A DNA stretch of 64,000 bases. Origin: Vreelandella zhanjiangensis DSM 21076 (lineage in GTDB: Bacteria > Pseudomonadota > Gammaproteobacteria > Pseudomonadales > Halomonadaceae). The notes beneath the pieces are model-generated. The model was not told the origin of the DNA and did not search any database. It was given only the letters and a program-made list of their open reading frames with translations. How positions within the stretch are numbered: position 1 is the stretch's first letter; the number at the start of each line of letters is the position of its first letter. Made by a program: the position numbers and the translations under genes. Location of the stretch: contig NZ_KB898647.1 in NCBI RefSeq assembly GCF_000377665.1, forward strand, positions 437,559 to 501,558, in the 5' to 3' direction. Below, one piece after another: positions 724 to 47,865 of this stretch.

Positions 724-2043
724 TGCTTCCTGATCGCGGCTTTCCCGCCACGCCATAATCTCGGCAAAGCGTTTTTCCTGGCCAAGCGCGCTGGGTTCAA
801 AAAAGCGTGCCTGGGGTAAGTCCTCCGGCCAGCAGTTATGCGTGCTGCCAGCCGGGTAGCCGTCCGGCTCGTTATGGGCGTAACGGTAGCCTTCACCATG
901 GCCTAGTTGTTCCATTAGCTTGGTAGGCGCGTTGCGCAAATAGGTGGGCACCTCTACCTGAGGCTGTTGGCTGACAAACTGCTTGGCGGCCTTCCAGGCA
1001 CGATCAATCCGATTACTCTTCGGCGCCACGGCCAGATGAATGGCCGCATGAGCAATCGCACGCTGGCCTTCGTAATCCCCTAAACGCAGATAAGCATCCC
1101 AGGCGGCTATCACCAGCGGTAGCGCTCGTGGGTCGGCATTGCCGACATCTTCTGAGGCAATCGCGGCAAGCCTTCGCACCACGTCCAGCGGGTCACCACC
1201 ACCCTGCATAAACCGCGCCATATAAAGTAGAGCGGCGTCCGGGCGTGATGAGCGTATTGATTTATGAATAGCCGAGAGCAGGTCGTAATAGGCGTCCCCC
1301 TGCTTATCAAACGCGCTTGCCTGATGGCCGATTACATCCGCCAGTACTGCCATGGGCAGCACTTCCTGGCCATTCTCCTGCTGGGTAAAATCACACGCGG
1401 TTTCCAGAAGGCCCAATGCCCGCCGGGCATCGCCAGCACTTGCATGCGCCAGGGCCGAGAGCACTTCATCATCAACGTGGATATTGCGCTTGCCAAGCCC
1501 GCGCTGGTCGTCGCTAAGCGCTTGGCGCATCACGCTGATCAGCTCTTCTTGGTCGAGCGCTTTAAGCACGTAAACTCGGGCGCGTGAAAGCAGGGCGGAG
1601 TTAACCTCGAACGACGGATTTTCCGTTGTCGCGCCGATCAGGGTTAACAGGCCGGATTCAACGTGGGGCAGCAGCGCATCCTGCTGGCTTTTGTTTAAGC
1701 GGTGAATCTCATCCAAAAAGAGAATAACCGGCGAAGTGTGCTGCTGGGCACGCTCCACTGCCGCGCGTATCTCTTTCACTCCGGCCATTACCGCACTTAA
1801 ATGCTCAAGCTGAGCATTGGAAGCATGGGCGAGCAGTTCGGCAAGCGTCGTTTTTCCAACGCCGGGAGGGCCCCATAAAATCATTGAGCGTACAAGGCCC
1901 GCCTCGGCCATGCGGCGTAGCGGTTTGCCAGGCCCCACCAGCGCCTGTTGGCCTATGTAGTCATCCAGCGTCTGTGGGCGCATCCGGTAGGCCAGGGGGG
2001 CGTCATCGCTGGGTGCTGAGCGCTGAGAATCAAACAGGTCCAT
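709..2043 (-). CDS. rarA: Replication-associated recombination protein A (AAA+ ATPase)
   Basis: RarA/MgsA-type clamp-loader-like ATPase that acts at stalled replication forks. The 444-residue product starts MDLFDSQ. It has Walker [10 protein letters not shown] at about residues 58-66, Walker B with DEIH at about 112-115, and a sensor-1 segment [10 protein letters not shown] near 138-147. The C-terminal oligomerisation half includes the family pattern [16 protein letters not shown]. Length fits the family. It is convergent with lolA. The ATG chosen gives the conserved N-terminus and follows a purine-rich stretch. Confidence 0.95.
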
Positions 2044-20538: not shown

Positions 20539-20614
20539 GTCCCATTCGTCTAGTGGTCTAGGACACCGCCCTTTCACGGCGGTAACAGGGGTTCGAACCC
20601 CCTATGGGACGCCA
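20539..20614 (+). tRNA. tRNA-Glu (TTC)
   Basis: A 76-base cloverleaf. Acceptor GTCCCAT pairs with ATGGGAC, the anticodon loop is CTTTCAC, the T-arm is AGGGG-TTCGAA-CCCCT, and CCA is encoded. First of three near-identical copies. Confidence 0.97.
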
Positions 20615-20638
20615 ATTACATCGTTAGGGTATCGGAGT

Positions 20639-20713
20639 GCGGGAATAGCTCAGTGGTAGAGCATCGCCTTGCCAAGGCGAGGGTCGAGAGTTCGAATCTC
20701 TTTTCCCGCTCCA
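20639..20713 (+). tRNA. tRNA-Gly (GCC)
   Basis: Acceptor GCGGGAA pairs with TTCCCGC, the anticodon loop is TTGCCAA, the T-arm is GAGAGTTCGAATCTC, and CCA is encoded. First of three copies. Confidence 0.97.
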
Positions 20714-20719
20714 AAATAC

Positions 20720-20795
20720 GTCCCATTCGTCTAGTGGTCTAGGACACCGCCCTTTCACGGCGGTAACAGGGGTTCGAACCCCCTATGGGACGCCA
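20720..20795 (+). tRNA. tRNA-Glu (TTC), second copy
   Basis: Identical to the first copy in the visible cloverleaf, with encoded CCA. It lies six bases after the preceding tRNA-Gly. Confidence 0.97.
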
Positions 20796-20819
20796 ATCCG
20801 ATTGCGAAAAATTGATTAA

Positions 20820-20894
20820 GCGGGAATAGCTCAGTGGTAGAGCATCGCCTTGCCAAGGCGAGGGTCGAGAGTTCGAATCTCTTTTCCCGCTCCA
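20820..20894 (+). tRNA. tRNA-Gly (GCC), second copy
   Basis: Same sequence as the first tRNA-Gly, with encoded CCA. Confidence 0.97.
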
Positions 20895-20928
20895 ATCAAG
20901 TGATTGATAGTGTGGTTAAGCAAGTGCA

Positions 20929-20976
20929 GGTCGAGAGCTGGTGCGCCAGTCCGATCAAATCTCTTTTCCCGCTCCA
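20929..20976 (+). repeat. Interrupted copy of the tRNA-Gly 3' end (copy 1)
   Basis: Begins GGTCGAGAG and ends CTCTTTTCCCGCTCCA exactly as tRNA-Gly does, but carries a 16-base insertion where the T-loop would be (CTGG..CGCCAG hairpin). No 5' half is present, so it is not a functional tRNA gene. Confidence 0.85.
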
Positions 20977-20995
20977 ATCAAATAGATGTCTATAC

Positions 20996-21071
20996 GTCCC
21001 ATTCGTCTAGTGGCCTAGGACACCGCCCTTTCACGGCGGTAACAAGGGTTCGAACCCCTTATGGGACGCCA
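20996..21071 (+). tRNA. tRNA-Glu (TTC), third copy
   Basis: Differs from the other two by T-to-C in the D-loop and a compensated change in the T-stem (AAGGG with CCCTT instead of AGGGG with CCCCT). Pairing is preserved, so it should be functional. Confidence 0.96.
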
Positions 21072-21089
21072 TCTAAAACAGTTTGCGTT

Positions 21090-21164
21090 GCGGGAATAGC
21101 TCAGTGGTAGAGCATCGCCTTGCCAAGGCGAGGGTCGAGAGTTCGAATCTCTTTTCCCGCTCCA
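21090..21164 (+). tRNA. tRNA-Gly (GCC), third copy
   Basis: Same cloverleaf as the other two tRNA-Gly genes, with encoded CCA. Confidence 0.97.
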
Positions 21165-43447: not shown

Positions 43448-43519
43448 TGTTTACCCATTGGCCAATGTCAGGCGTATTAACGATGGTATTCAAACGCCGT
43501 GTGCGTCATAGAGTATTAG

Positions 43520-43700
43520 AATCGGCCGCACAGTAAAACGCTGCATGGCTTTTTGCGGGCCCCACTTCGGGTGAAGAGAACATTCTTATGCTGATACGTG
43601 GGCGCCTAGGTAGGAGCATGTCGAATGCCTCTGCCTAGGGCATGCTCGGGCATAAATCCTATGTACAAAAAAAGCGCCCTCAACTGAGGACGCTTTTTTG
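43520..43700 (+). ncRNA. Possible structured small RNA ending in a terminator
   Basis: A good terminator (AAAAAGCG and CGCTTTTTT around a CCTCA/TGAGG stem, 43667-43699) follows no plus-strand gene. The preceding 150 bases contain GC-rich pairable segments, for example GGAGCATG and CATGCTC, and two CCTAGG boxes. This suggests an independent transcript. 6S RNA and SRP RNA were compared by eye and do not match. No clear promoter was found. Confidence 0.3.
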
Positions 43701-44439
43701 TTACCTTGCTCTTCCATGATGTTGCGTTGCTCATCCTGAGCCATCATTCCCTTGTGTGCGGTTTCCTTGCCGCGAACAATACAAACAATAGAGAATAGTT
43801 AAGCAATGTACAAGTAAAAATTGTAACGTTATTGTACGAAAGCGTTGCGATACTGAGTTAAAGCGATAATGAAGCGTATTTTTGCAGATAAAAGCCCTGA
43901 TAAATGGGTTTTCTGCTTATTTTTTGTTCAGCTTTAAAGTGTCGCATTATACAAAGGTATAATATTGACGTGCGGCCAAAAGCATTTTTCGCTTGAAAAT
44001 TTCTGGGATGCTTTTGAGTAAGGGGAGGTGGGTAAACCTGCCAGTGAGAAAAGTATTCACAAAAATTAGCATACCGACACCTAACTATACTATGGGTTCT
44101 CATTATAGCTAGCTTTCAAACGGTGGTTTGGAGCTAATTAATTGATTGACCTATTTTTATGATTAAATTCAATACCTATTGACTTCTATCGATTAGTTTT
44201 TAATATATAACTATATGGTACGTTTTATATTAGTTTTACCTAGAAAAAAGCATTAATCGGTTATTTTTACGGGCTATAAGGCCAAAAAGATATAAGATGA
44301 AGATATCTTTTATTATTTAAATAATTTTTCCAATATTGATTTAGACATTGATTTTAATTAGAAAAATAAACTAGTTAGAATATGAACTATATTTTTGTAA
44401 AAAATTATTATTTTTAACTTTTCATAACCTGGGTTAGAT
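43701..44439. other. Long AT-rich region without a supportable gene
   Basis: About 740 bp, strongly AT-rich from 44100 on. An 81-codon reading frame at 43858-44103 has no ribosome site or family pattern. TTGACT and TAATAT 16 bases apart (44179-44206) look like a promoter, but no gene starts near. The region leads into the first CsrB-like RNA; GacA/UvrY-controlled RNA genes often have long AT-rich upstream regions. Confidence 0.5.
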
Positions 44440-44610
44440 CATTCAGACGCTTTAAGGTCCATTGTAACGACATGGCGCAAGGACAGCGCAGGAAGGAAGA
44501 GCAAATAAGGATATTTGCGGTATACAAGGAAGCATGAACAGGATGTTCATGAAGCAAGATTAAGGACGAACTAAATCACCCCCGGCCAGTAATGGCCGGG
44601 GGTTTTTTTA
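44440..44610 (+). ncRNA. CsrB/RsmZ-type regulatory RNA, copy A
   Basis: Between about 44440 and a strong terminator there are seven GGA motifs (from 44481 to 44566). Two lie in the loops of perfect hairpins: GCAAATA-AGGA-TATTTGC at 44501-44518 and CATGAACA-GGA-TGTTCATG at 44533-44551. Loop-exposed AGGA/ANGGA is the binding site of CsrA/RsmA, and many such sites in a short terminated RNA define the CsrB/RsmY/RsmZ class. The 5' end is an estimate. No perfect GacA box (TGTAAG..CTTACA) was found upstream. Confidence 0.7.
44579..44609 (+). terminator. Terminator of CsrB-like RNA A
   Basis: Nine-base stem CCCCCGGCC / GGCCGGGGG, loop AGTAAT, then seven T. Confidence 0.93.
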
Positions 44611-44642: not shown

Positions 44643-46097
44643 TTAAGGTGTAGGTAAGAGTAACGGCATAATAAAATAAACAAATAGCGTAATGGCAATC
44701 GCGCTTACGATATTCATGGCAAAGCCTGCTTTGGCCATTTGTTTAATAGTAATACGCCCTGTTGAAAAGACGGCCGCGTTGGGTGGCGTCGAAATAGGCA
44801 GCATAAATGCACACGTCGTCGCCAGCGCAACTGCCACCATTAAGCCTAATGGGTTGCCGGTAGTGATCGCCGCAGCCATGCCTGCAGTGATAGGTAGCGC
44901 CATATTGGCCGTCGCTGTATTCGAGATAATCTCGGTCAAGAACAGCATTAACAGCACCATAATCAACAGTAGCCAGAAGTAGTTCACGCCATCTAGCAGT
45001 TGGAGTTGATTGCTGATCCAGCCGGTTAAGTCGCTTGCGACAAATGCCGCGGCCAGCGTCATGCCGCCACCCCAGAGAATGAACAGCCCCCACGGCAAGC
45101 TTTTCATATCGTCCCACACCAGCAGGGCCCGTTTCTCGTTGTGAGCGGGAATCACGAACAGCGCAATGGCGGCGGTTACCGCGATCAGCGTATCGTTAAT
45201 AGGAAGATCGAAAAACGGTGCCAGCCAGCCGCGTAATGCCCAGGCCAGCGCGGTCACCACAAACACACCTAAAACACGCTTTTCTTCCTGGCTCATGGGG
45301 CCTAAAGACGCTAGCTCCTGAGCGACAAAATCAATTTCAAGCGGTGTATTGGGTACCTTGGCATAGATTCGGGTGAGGTAAACATACAGTACCGCCAGCA
45401 GAATCAGGGTTAACGGCAGCGCAAAAATCATCCACTGCAGGAAGCTGATTTCCACGCCTTCAAAAAACTGGGGAATCATCGCGACTACAATAGCGTTGGG
45501 TACCGAGCCGATAATCGTTGCCAACCCGCCTATAGAGGCCGAGTAAGCAACGGTTAGGAGCAAAATACGCGCAAAGCTATCGCGCTGATTGCGATCAAAC
45601 TGGTCGCGTTCGTCCAGCTCACTGGTAAGCGCGACGGCAATGGGCAACATCATAAGTGCCGTGGCGGCATTTGAGATCCACATGGATAGAAACGCCGAGG
45701 CAATCAAAACCCCCAGCACGATGCTGCGCAGGCTATTGCCAATGCGATTAACAATGGCCAGCGCAATACGCCGGTGCAGGTTCCAGCGCTCAATGGCAAT
45801 CGCCAGAATAAACCCGCCCATGTACATATAGATAACCGGGTTGGCGTAGCCCACCACGGCTTCATCCAGCACCATCACGCCGCTTAAGGGCAGCACTAAC
45901 ATAGGCAGGAAAGACGTAATGGGAATAGGTACGGGCTCGGTTACCCACCAAGTGCCCATCCAAACCGTTAAGGCGAGAACCGTCCGCGGCGCAGGATCAA
46001 TCAACGTGTCGGGCAGTATTAGCTGGATCAATATAAAAAGGAGTGGCCCTGCTAGTAATGGCACCCAGTGGCGCCAATTCGATAATGACATTCCCAT
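44643..46097 (-). CDS. DASS (SLC13) family anion/Na+ symporter
   Basis: Sodium-coupled dicarboxylate carrier of 484 residues with eleven to twelve membrane helices. Typical segments: WWVTEPVPIPITSFLPMLVLPLSGVM, SIGGLATIIGSVPNAIV (the SNT-like substrate loop), LTEIISNTATANMALPI with the second SNT motif, and ISTPPNAAVFSTGRI near the end. Likely substrates are succinate, malate or similar acids. AGGAGAGG precedes the ATG. It is flanked on both sides by CsrB-like RNA genes running the opposite way. Confidence 0.92.
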   Translation of the reverse strand: MGMSLSNWRHWVPLLAGPLLFILIQLILPDTLIDPAPRTVLALTVWMGTWWVTEPVPIPITSFLPMLVLPLSGVMVLDEAVVGYANPVIYMYMGGFILAIAIERWNLHRRIALAIVNRIGNSLRSIVLGVLIASAFLSMWISNAATALMMLPIAVALTSELDERDQFDRNQRDSFARILLLTVAYSASIGGLATIIGSVPNAIVVAMIPQFFEGVEISFLQWMIFALPLTLILLAVLYVYLTRIYAKVPNTPLEIDFVAQELASLGPMSQEEKRVLGVFVVTALAWALRGWLAPFFDLPINDTLIAVTAAIALFVIPAHNEKRALLVWDDMKSLPWGLFILWGGGMTLAAAFVASDLTGWISNQLQLLDGVNYFWLLLIMVLLMLFLTEIISNTATANMALPITAGMAAAITTGNPLGLMVAVALATTCAFMLPISTPPNAAVFSTGRITIKQMAKAGFAMNIVSAIAITLFVYFIMPLLLPTP

Positions 46098-46349
46098 ACG
46101 CCTCTCCTGACGCTACAGCATGAATTTATTAGCAATCTGCTAACCATAAGGAGAAAGCATGCTACCACTTTCGTTTATACTCCGTTGGTCGAAAGGGATA
46201 GACTTTGGTATTAGGGTGGGCGCGTTAACCGCCCTCTGTTTTTAGCAGGCGTGAGAATAATAAAGCGAACTTATCTGGCGCAAATTACAGCGTGTCTGGT
46301 GGATTTTTTTTAAATTTATTATCCTGAATTAATGTATCTGACACATTTA
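46098..46349. other. Intergenic region upstream of the DASS gene and RNA B
   Basis: About 250 bp holding the presumed divergent control regions of the DASS carrier (minus) and the CsrB-like RNA B (plus). No ORF or repeat is evident. An AT-rich run at 46305-46325 is the only marked feature. Confidence 0.4.
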
Positions 46350-46505
46350 AGGTTCAAGGTAGGCAGTACCACAAGGAAGGTGGCCAGGAAGAACAAGCAA
46401 GGAGTGCTTGAGTTGCCCAGGGATGCACGAACAGGATGTTTGTGAGGAAATATTACGGAGGACCTGATAAAGCCCCGGCCGATCATTGGCCGGGGCTTTT
46501 TTTTA
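46350..46505 (+). ncRNA. CsrB/RsmZ-type regulatory RNA, copy B
   Basis: Eight GGA motifs lie between 46375 and 46462. Loop-displayed examples are CAAGCA-AGGAG-TGCTTG at 46394-46410 and CACGAACA-GGA-TGTTTGTG at 46426-46444, the second nearly the same as in copy A. A strong terminator closes the gene. Expected role: sequester CsrA/RsmA and so relieve repression of its targets. The 5' end is estimated. Confidence 0.7.
46471..46504 (+). terminator. Terminator of CsrB-like RNA B
   Basis: Ten-base stem AGCCCCGGCC / GGCCGGGGCT with a seven-base loop and a run of eight T. Confidence 0.93.
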
Positions 46506-46551: not shown

Positions 46552-47865
46552 TTATTTTTTGTCACTGCTTTCAGACGTTACCGTCTCTGACTTTGCGTTC
46601 TCAGATTTTATGTTCTCAAGCTCTGCGCTCTCAGGTTTTGCATGACCCTGATGGCTAAGCGGGCTTGCCTGATCCAGGCGCGGGTGATTATCCAAAAATT
46701 CACGCTCAAGGTTAGGCAGTTTATCCAGCGCCAGCAGGGTATGGGTAAGCGCATGGATCGCTGCCAGAACATCCTTGGTATTGCCGGTTTCCGAGATGGT
46801 GTGCATGTTACGAATCGGGAAGCCGATAGAGGTGGCGGCGCTATCAATAGAGGCCAATACGCCCGCCATACCGTCAGTACCCGTATCCACACCCACCATA
46901 TCGCGCTGAATGGGAATATCCTGCTCTTTAGCGGCGCTGGCGATGATGCGATTCAACTGCTCGCTGGCAATGGAGCCGACCGACATCGTAAAGCCTTTGC
47001 CCATTTCCAGCGGCTGCATACGCTTATCGCCGATACCCGGAGCGGCTACGTAGTCGTGGTTTACGTCTACACCAATCAACGCGTCGGGTTTTAGCTCACC
47101 GGCCATGACTCGGCTACCAAAACGGCCAATCTCTTCGTAGCTTGCAATGGCAAACATGACGCGCACGTTATCAGTGCCGCCTGCTTCGGCGATCAACCGC
47201 GCGACTTCAGCGGTCACAAAGCAGCCCAAGCCGTTATCCAGGTAGGCGCCGTAGAAGGTATCGGGGCTGAAGCCGGGGCGAATAGGGCGGTCAAAAATAA
47301 TCGAGTCACCCGGGCGCACGCCTAGATTAAGCACTTGCTGCTTTTTGTTCTCGCCGTGAATCTGCAGGTCCAGATAGATCTGCTCTTTCTTGATGCCCTT
47401 GTCGCCAGTGCGCGCCGCTGGGTCGGAAAAGTGAATGGCGCCTAGCGCTTCAACGGTACCACCTTCAATCGAACGGTAGCTGCCGGGTTTTTCAGGGTCT
47501 TCACTGAACAGTTTCACTTCATGACCGATCAGTACAGAAGGCAAAAACGAATCGGTGTTGATCCAGATTTTGCCGTCTTCGCCAATTGAGCGTACCTGCA
47601 TCCGAATCTTGTCCGCATGGCCGATAATCATAACCTTGAACATATCATCGCGGTCAGGGTGGGTATCCAACACCACGCCTGCGTTGCCCTTGAACTGGTG
47701 AAGGTGCCAGCTGTCAGGGGCAAACGTTTCGAAGTAAGGCTTTAAGACGCCGTAGGTCATTGCCCCTTCCAGGCCAACCGGGCTAGGGGCGGCCAGAATG
47801 TCGCGCATCAGCTTGAACTGTGCTTCCGGCATGGACTGCGTCCAGGGTTTTGCAGTATCACTCAT
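46552..47865 (-). CDS. M42-family metallopeptidase with a repetitive C-terminal tail
   Basis: Di-metal aminopeptidase-like protein of 437 residues. Likely metal ligands and catalytic residues: H83-x-D85 (IIGHADK), D210 (AYLDNGLG), E244/E245 (SYEEIGRFG), D267 (GVDVNHD) and H355 (RNMHTISE). Related to the M42 hydrolases found with osmoprotectant dipeptide genes, but those partners are not adjacent. Residues about 408-432 form a five-residue repeat (NAKPE, SAELE, NIKSE, NAKSE, TVTSE) beyond the enzyme domain, encoded by a 15-bp tandem DNA repeat. Confidence 0.85.
   Translation of the reverse strand: MSDTAKPWTQSMPEAQFKLMRDILAAPSPVGLEGAMTYGVLKPYFETFAPDSWHLHQFKGNAGVVLDTHPDRDDMFKVMIIGHADKIRMQVRSIGEDGKIWINTDSFLPSVLIGHEVKLFSEDPEKPGSYRSIEGGTVEALGAIHFSDPAARTGDKGIKKEQIYLDLQIHGENKKQQVLNLGVRPGDSIIFDRPIRPGFSPDTFYGAYLDNGLGCFVTAEVARLIAEAGGTDNVRVMFAIASYEEIGRFGSRVMAGELKPDALIGVDVNHDYVAAPGIGDKRMQPLEMGKGFTMSVGSIASEQLNRIIASAAKEQDIPIQRDMVGVDTGTDGMAGVLASIDSAATSIGFPIRNMHTISETGNTKDVLAAIHALTHTLLALDKLPNLEREFLDNHPRLDQASPLSHQGHAKPESAELENIKSENAKSETVTSESSDKK
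46571..46645. repeat. 15-bp coding tandem repeat at the 3' end of the M42 gene
   Basis: Plus-strand units TCAGACGTTACCGTC, TCTGACTTTGCGTTC, TCAGATTTTATGTTC, TCAAGCTCTGCGCTC and TCAGGTTTTGCATGA. Each encodes five residues ending in Glu. Confidence 0.7.

Follow-up and report, generated by a model that had tools for sequence, protein, structure and literature searches.

The 64-kb window (the whole stretch of DNA analysed here, on contig C2 of a 4.06-Mb genome in 16 contigs) holds two GGA-rich segments, RNA A and RNA B, on either side of a DASS-family anion symporter gene. They raise two questions: whether they are sponge RNAs of the Csr/Rsm class, and how such a linked pair came about. A sequence-only reading of the window had taken the pair for an old duplication with the DASS gene as its carrier, and had regarded the linkage as unusual. 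From our analysis it is very probable that A and B are paralogous CsrA decoys with their own promoters and terminators, and that the pair is old and has been retained next to the M42 peptidase gene, the DASS gene being a later arrival specific to one clade. This reading is carried by computed architecture, homology and covariation, by shared order, by conserved promoter-like and terminator parts, and by the presence of a single CsrA.

Architecture of the A/B locus

RNA B, with its eight GGA triplets (46353-46499), lies where the sequence-only reading had placed it, and RNA A does lie 1.9 kb upstream on the same (+) strand, with the DASS gene between them on the minus strand. The features are as follows.

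44425-44436, +, dyad TAACCTGGGTTA, -35 position of RNA A
44451-44456, +, putative -10-like TTTAAG of RNA A
About 44457-44609, +, RNA A, candidate Csr/Rsm-class sponge RNA, 7 GGA (covariance model R1; RF00166 below gathering score)
44475-44489, +, RNA A hairpin 1, GCGC AAGGACA GCGC (fold)
44501-44518, +, RNA A hairpin 2, GCAAAT AAGGAT ATTTGC (fold and covariation)
44533-44551, +, RNA A hairpin 3, CATGAAC AGGAT GTTCATG (fold and covariation)
44578-44603, +, RNA A intrinsic terminator, 11 pairs and T tract (covariation)
44643-46097, -, DASS-family anion symporter gene between A and B (TIGR00785, 276.8 bits)
46320-46331, +, dyad TATCCTGAATTA, -35 position of RNA B, 8/12 letters to TAACCTAGGTTA
46346-46351, +, putative -10-like TTTAAG of RNA B (a TTTAAGG/TATAAGG-like stretch precedes the RNA start in many rows)
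About 46353-46504, +, RNA B, candidate Csr/Rsm-class sponge RNA, 8 GGA (covariance model R1 and covariation)
46369-46383, +, RNA B hairpin 1, CCAC AAGGAAG GTGG (from sequence; absent from the MFE fold)
46394-46410, +, RNA B hairpin 2, CAAGC AAGGAGT GCTTG (fold and covariation helix 1)
46426-46444, +, RNA B hairpin 3, CACGAAC AGGAT GTTTGTG (fold and covariation helix 2)
46469-46499, +, RNA B intrinsic terminator, 14 pairs and T tract (covariation helix 3)
46552-47865, -, M42 peptidase gene, conserved neighbour, convergent with B (PF05343, 138.1 bits)

Each RNA has, by reading, three GGA hairpins and a strong terminator, and both are free-standing genes that end in an intrinsic terminator. The likeness between one hairpin of A and one of B had been pointed out before; the sequences quoted for it are exact, but on our reading they belong to hairpin 3 of both RNAs rather than to hairpin 2. 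The dyad of RNA A together with the next GAT is the only zero-mismatch genome match listed for TANCCNNGGTTAGAT. Upstream of A, about 1 kb of mostly AT-rich DNA (43448-44424) contains no listed frame longer than 81 aa, and an inverted repeat with a T tract lies within it near 43670-43702.

We infer that A and B are transcribed, bind CsrA and act as sponges. Each would be transcribed from its own promoter and end at its own intrinsic terminator, with GGA triplets displayed in the three hairpin loops and in the linkers, where CsrA dimers would bind; CsrA held in this way would leave its mRNA targets free. Two adjacent copies would provide a higher dose of binding sites, and different signals may act on each. 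As expected for this class, the window's genome encodes CsrA, in one copy (PF02599, 92.8 bits; cut-off 27).

Relation to known Csr/Rsm RNAs and distribution

No Rfam family reached its gathering score with A or B. RNA A matched PrrB_RsmZ (RF00166) with 31.1 bits (E 1e-4; gathering 44) and RNA B matched RsmY (RF00195) with 17.6 bits (E 0.28; gathering 57), while the best lenient Rfam match of B was NsiR1 (30.3 bits, E 0.003; gathering 39), a match that rests largely on the terminator. The CsrB family gave no match to A or B in the Rfam searches, the lenient one included. When the window's genome was searched with RF00166, RNA A was absent among the six places listed, and the two best-listed loci (L074 and L075) were rejected as they do not read as Rsm RNAs. 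We used instead a covariance model of our own, R1, whose training set includes the A and B of the window and sequences from some of the searched genomes. With R1, B scored 151.7 bits (E 7e-42) and A 147.8 bits in the window's genome, followed by an unlinked copy C (60.4 bits, E 1e-14), and the next match had only 20.6 bits. Copy C (L198:2465-2605, minus strand; G000:C1:833964-834104) has six GGA and a weak T tract.

At E 0.001, R1 matches 122 of 201 genomes of the family, including 44 of the 50 genomes in the window's genus (its own among them; G188 and G196 only at 4e-4 and 7e-4), and 79 of the 201, six of these in the genus, are without a match. The 80 named M42 loci yield 73 matches of at least 44.8 bits, every one of them pointing towards the M42 gene; the next match has 22.5 bits. 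Outside the genus, nine sister-genus genomes chosen for high counts (G155, G122, G114, G126, G123, G136, G014, G023 and G039) have 8-19 R1 matches each, which are upper bounds as some matches are overlapping or partial. In G155, five matches fall within 2.8 kb (L203, G155:C1:1409500-1415000). Several of the sister-genus copies have, by reading, a GacA-like box and a dyad. In three sister-genus genomes (L199, L200 and L201), an extra csrA adjoins a divergently transcribed sponge-type RNA with GacA-like boxes, which reads as a csrA-plus-decoy module.

CsrB of Escherichia coli is a multi-GGA decoy. The A and B of the window, with only seven and eight GGA, differ in this respect both from CsrB and from Pf1 and Pf2 of Pseudoalteromonas fuliginea, where 25, 21 and 9 GGA are given for Pf1, Pf2 and Pf3 in the accessible part of the source (PMC11882849). 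A form similar to these multi-GGA decoys is seen in four related genomes, where an elongated RNA A reaches about 400 nt and the stretches displayed contain 22-24 GGA (L034:2740-3215, L038:5260-5720, L039:5150-5670 and L036:2120-2575). It consists of repeated GCAAA..GGA..TTTGC-like hairpin units between one dyad and one terminator, and the matching named loci (L119, L120, L121 and L149) form one clade in the M42 tree (99/95). Closer to A and B are PrrB/RsmZ (RF00166) and RsmY (RF00195) of Pseudomonas, which resemble them in GGA hairpins, length, intrinsic terminator and the CsrA/RsmA system. They differ in that A and B stay below the gathering scores of both families and are without a recognisable GacA box, whereas two RsmZ controls have the box and lack the -35 dyad described below.

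In the open-licence literature accessible to us, we came across no account of RNAs of this kind from Halomonas or Vreelandella. For the Gac system of Halomonas anticariensis, the part available of a 2020 review gives the sRNAs as 'Unknown' (PMC7366521), and a preprint that models CsrA targets in H. hydrothermalis leaves sponge sRNAs to future models, according to its accessible text (PMC12889724). A and B are new candidate members of the Csr/Rsm sponge RNA class.

GGA content, folding and covariation

GGA number alone is little proof, because the values are barely beyond chance and equal density occurs elsewhere in the window. Eight GGA in B (46353-46499) give P 0.05 in mononucleotide and 0.06 in dinucleotide shuffles, seven in A (44457-44604) give P 0.10 and 0.07, and across the 64 kb a density of 7-8 GGA per 155 nt is reached six times, at A, at B and at four other places. 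GGA density was therefore rejected as proof. The folding energy z is -4.0 for B and -5.8 for A, with the terminators contributing to both. A and B are 71% identical over 143 aligned columns, and their local alignment, terminators excluded, scores 37 against a maximum of 21.5 among 500 shuffles.

A structural alignment of A with B, which the sequence-only reading had suggested, bears out the relationship. Over 40 A/B sequences, 38 of them from other genomes, three shared helices comprise 19 pairs, of which 15 have two-sided, compensatory changes, and 96.4% of cells are paired; none of 500 shuffles reached the observed value on any of five measures. Paired cells fell to 32-47% in slid-partner controls, which correct only partly for kinship among the sequences, by which the covariation counts are inflated. 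Hairpin 1 is outside this test, as A and B are misaligned there in alignment A1. Several GGA columns are invariant or nearly so over the 40 sequences, and A and B thus have the several conserved GGA triplets in hairpin loops and linkers that mark the class, although the count itself is not significant. The architecture and homology of B support its assignment as a CsrB/Rsm-class RNA.

Linkage of A and B and the place of the DASS gene

When layouts are read from M42 outward (r, RNA; D, DASS), the 80 named M42 loci comprise rr (15), rDr (7, the window being an eighth), r (7), Drr (5), rrr (2), rD (1), Dr (1) and none (42); among the loci counted as without RNA, L122, L141, L147 and L165 end just past M42 and are uninformative. 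RNA is therefore found at 38 of the 80 loci, and two or three RNAs at 29 of these 38. The sequence-only reading had held paired Rsm RNAs to be usually unlinked, and had named a common arrangement as what would speak against it. In other Halomonadaceae the pair recurs beside the M42 gene and is the commonest state at this locus in the named set, and Pseudomonas tandems are published, so that the linked pair is not unusual. The earlier expectation may stem from a 2014 review, in the accessible part of which Csr/Rsm siblings are listed as 'Distal' (PMC4211561).

The published case is rsmX-1/rsmX-2 of Pseudomonas brassicacearum NFM421; the part of the source available gives rsmX tandems for P. fluorescens F113 and P. 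stutzeri as well (PMC7911923). Like A and B, rsmX-1 and rsmX-2 are linked duplicates (75-81.5% identical, Table 1 of the same partly available source); their copies lie about 100-130 nt apart, and locus and family are other than those of A and B (PMC7911923). Unlike A and B, both NFM421 copies have the GacA upstream sequence, and rsmX-2 is reported in the accessible text to be GacA-dependent (PMC7911923). A and B are likewise two homologous linked copies on the same strand, each with its own promoter, the latter seen as a footprint only.

The order within the pair is constant. Of the two RNAs at each of the 28 loci with such a pair (the window's and 27 named ones), the M42-proximal copy is always of B type and the distal copy always of A type; beyond the named set, A is inverted and about 4 kb away in L048. 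In a tree of 71 RNA rows, which are short (234 columns) and open to gene conversion, the A/B labels need three changes, against a mean of 23.8 when shuffled, with 0 of 500 as low; as the labels were given by profile score, this count is partly circular, whereas the position count is not. The weak second pieces of elongated A (L119, L120, L121 and L149) were left out of both the layouts and this tree. We rejected the notion of A and B as two clean clades, since B rows are scattered in several parts of the tree with at least three label changes. The constant order and the tree labels support the earlier view of an old A/B duplication, and the pair is taken to have arisen before the main Vreelandella branches that carry A/B and to have stayed next to M42 since.

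The position of the DASS gene varies: it stands as M42-DASS-B-A in five named loci and as M42-B-DASS-A in seven plus the window. In the M42 tree (79 rows, with L178 and L192 dropped), where the window stands closest, among named loci, to Halomonas sp. Go_Leine_bin_112, H. colorata and H. citrativorans and the loci are mostly named Vreelandella, the B-DASS-A layout forms one clade of eight rows (support 97/87; in 96% of 200 bootstrap trees). By parsimony, a single event would have brought DASS to its place between the two RNAs, in the common ancestor of the eight genomes sampled and so within the lineage of the window's species. Layouts differ even between V. hamiltonii (L155) and V. stevensii (L157), near neighbours in the M42 tree: the former has M42-DASS-B-A, whereas in the latter an IS605-type tnpB gene separates the two RNAs and the stretch gives no DASS match. 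The tnpB gene lies at L054:3447-4559 (minus strand) by Pfam and at L157:7713-8822, the same protein being 100% identical over 370 residues. In V. nigrificans (L125) and L053, the B dyad begins straight at the T tract of A. Linkage of A and B is thus common and independent of the gene between them. Because B-DASS-A is confined to one clade, DASS is not the carrier or a part of the duplicated unit; elsewhere A and B are adjacent without a gene between them, or DASS lies beyond the pair, or tnpB lies between.

One could suppose that only one copy is active and that the other is a decaying duplicate without function. A single RNA is present at seven of the 38 named RNA loci, and two more have one beside DASS, so one copy can suffice. 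However, the A and B of the window both keep their stems, terminators, and dyad-like and -10-like stretches, albeit with a weaker dyad at B (8/12), the A and B lineages are each found through much of the genus, and compensatory changes are seen when A and B rows are taken together. We regard a decaying copy as improbable. Still less credible is a role other than that of decoys, in which B would serve the convergent M42 gene and A the convergent DASS gene as a 3' regulatory or antisense element, such as a bidirectional terminator. The RNA nearest M42 does face the 3' end of M42 or DASS in named RNA loci, and A faces the 3' end of DASS in the window; yet the conserved unit is a promoter box, GGA hairpins and a terminator, not a terminator alone, the A form is kept in rr loci, where no facing gene was found, and related copies occur at other loci. 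The A/B pair is real and probably functional, and an ordinary arrangement for the genus.

A conserved dyad at the -35 position

In promoter counts that leave out RNAs below 60 bits or with too little upstream DNA, at least 9 of 12 letters of TAACCTAGGTTA are present in 31 of 35 A rows (8% in shuffles) and in 25 of 32 B rows (7%); the enrichment is in-sample, as the motif was read off the same Vreelandella alignments. In 28 of the 35 A rows the best-matching dyad begins at position -32 relative to the A profile match. A TATAAGG/TTTAAGG-like stretch comes next, and the order at B is the same. Outside the genus, 13 of 18 sister-genus copies have at least 9/12, 11 of them at -32 to -34, against a shuffle rate of 5% pooled over all 23 rows. 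Two RsmZ promoters, taken from outside the family but within the order, lack the dyad (7 and 6 of 12; n=2).

GacA boxes at A/B and elsewhere in the genome

The GacA-type box is TGTAAGN6CTTACA. GacA is encoded in the window's genome by a gene adjoining uvrC (NF007018, 290.6 bits, cut-off 280; a frame of 216 residues). The two RsmZ controls have boxes of 11/12 at -178 and -190 in a 600-nt scan (0 of 300 shuffles), outside the range of a 130-nt scan, and for this reason A and B were scanned over 600 nt as well. The best box of the window's A and B within 600 nt has 8/12 letters, which 96% (A) and 81% (B) of shuffles match. Among Vreelandella rows, at least 9/12 is found within 260 nt in 5 of 35 A and 3 of 30 B rows, i.e. 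at shuffle level (11% and 13%), a scan that misses part of the promoter in the four elongated A rows; within 600 nt, 9/12 is found in 6 of 34 A and 7 of 32 B rows (shuffles 22% and 25%), and none reaches 10. Sister-genus copies have at least 9/12 in 10 of 18 cases against 8.6% of shuffles, and perfect boxes occur among them; seven of the boxes lie at -58 to -61, two at -83 and one at -245. As the box is absent at A/B, GacA control cannot be assumed, and the canonical box probably no longer drives either RNA. Possible explanations are another regulator acting at the dyad, an indirect action of GacA, or a drifted box.

The last of these would make A and B ordinary GacA-driven Rsm RNAs whose box is too diverged for the pattern used. 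In its favour are the presence of GacA, the boxes of the sister-genus copies, and a conserved stretch, TGATTGTATGT, near -113 to -118 in 11 of 35 A rows and 1 of 32 B rows, which could be a drifted GacA box or another site; the TGTATG within it gives the best box score (8-9 letters) in several rows, and the window's A is without it. The stretch, often as CAAACGTGCGTGATTGTATGTTTTTG, is found upstream of A in L125, L126, L130, L132, L133, L136, L138, L143, L146, L155 and L157, and a stretch of this type also lies near -115 upstream of the single RNA in L124. The 600-nt scans with their RsmZ controls point the opposite way: Vreelandella A/B score at shuffle level where the controls reach 11/12. 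Moreover, because six exact boxes are kept elsewhere in the same genome, the box motif itself has not drifted. A diverged box is a serious candidate to which we give somewhat less than an even chance.

The six exact boxes compare with 0.17 expected from base composition, and none of them is inside the 64-kb window. Two sit upstream of genes of VgrG type (with Phage_GPD and T6SS/baseplate OB domains), and another separates tssB/vipA from hcp in a type VI secretion system (T6SS); a box with one mismatch is upstream of a third VgrG-type gene. The T6SS-associated GacA-type palindromes are the following.

C1:505698 (L222), exact
C7:115936 (L225), exact
C11:46544 (L227), exact
C4:243239 (L230), one mismatch

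The other three exact boxes are by a GGA-rich sequence with an rsmX-like match, after an enolase-like gene (by eye) and near a TPP-enzyme gene. Three GGA-rich RNA candidates, E, D and F, were seen in the window's genome and had been missed by the R1 search (L226:1195-1312, plus strand; L226 about 1570-1740, plus strand; L224:1140-1345, minus strand). Candidate D has six GGA and lies beside an exact GacA box, E has four GGA and an rsmX match of 33.7 bits (E 0.005; gathering 56), and F has eight GGA and a strong terminator and lies 3' of a gene reading as enolase.

A more tentative reading, which we consider doubtful, is that the Gac/Rsm cascade has been rewired in Vreelandella: A and B, the main sponge pair, would have lost the box kept by the sister genera and come under another regulator at the -35 dyad TAACCTAGGTTA, which is found throughout the family, and the GacA palindrome would now serve T6SS promoters directly (VgrG-type genes, tssB/hcp) and lie near other GGA-rich RNA candidates. 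If so, CsrA release and the Gac signal would be partly uncoupled, in contrast to the Pseudomonas model, in which GacA acts through sponge RNAs. Whether sponge RNAs can leave GacA control is a testable matter, and as copy number and length at this locus vary between close species, so is the evolution of decoy dose; candidate sponge RNAs and a covariance model are now at hand for the family. Halomonas-type strains are used for bioplastics production, and CsrA dose might be a practical lever in them.

Elsewhere in the window, six tRNA genes of two alternating kinds lie at 20539-21161, three of them with identical scores.
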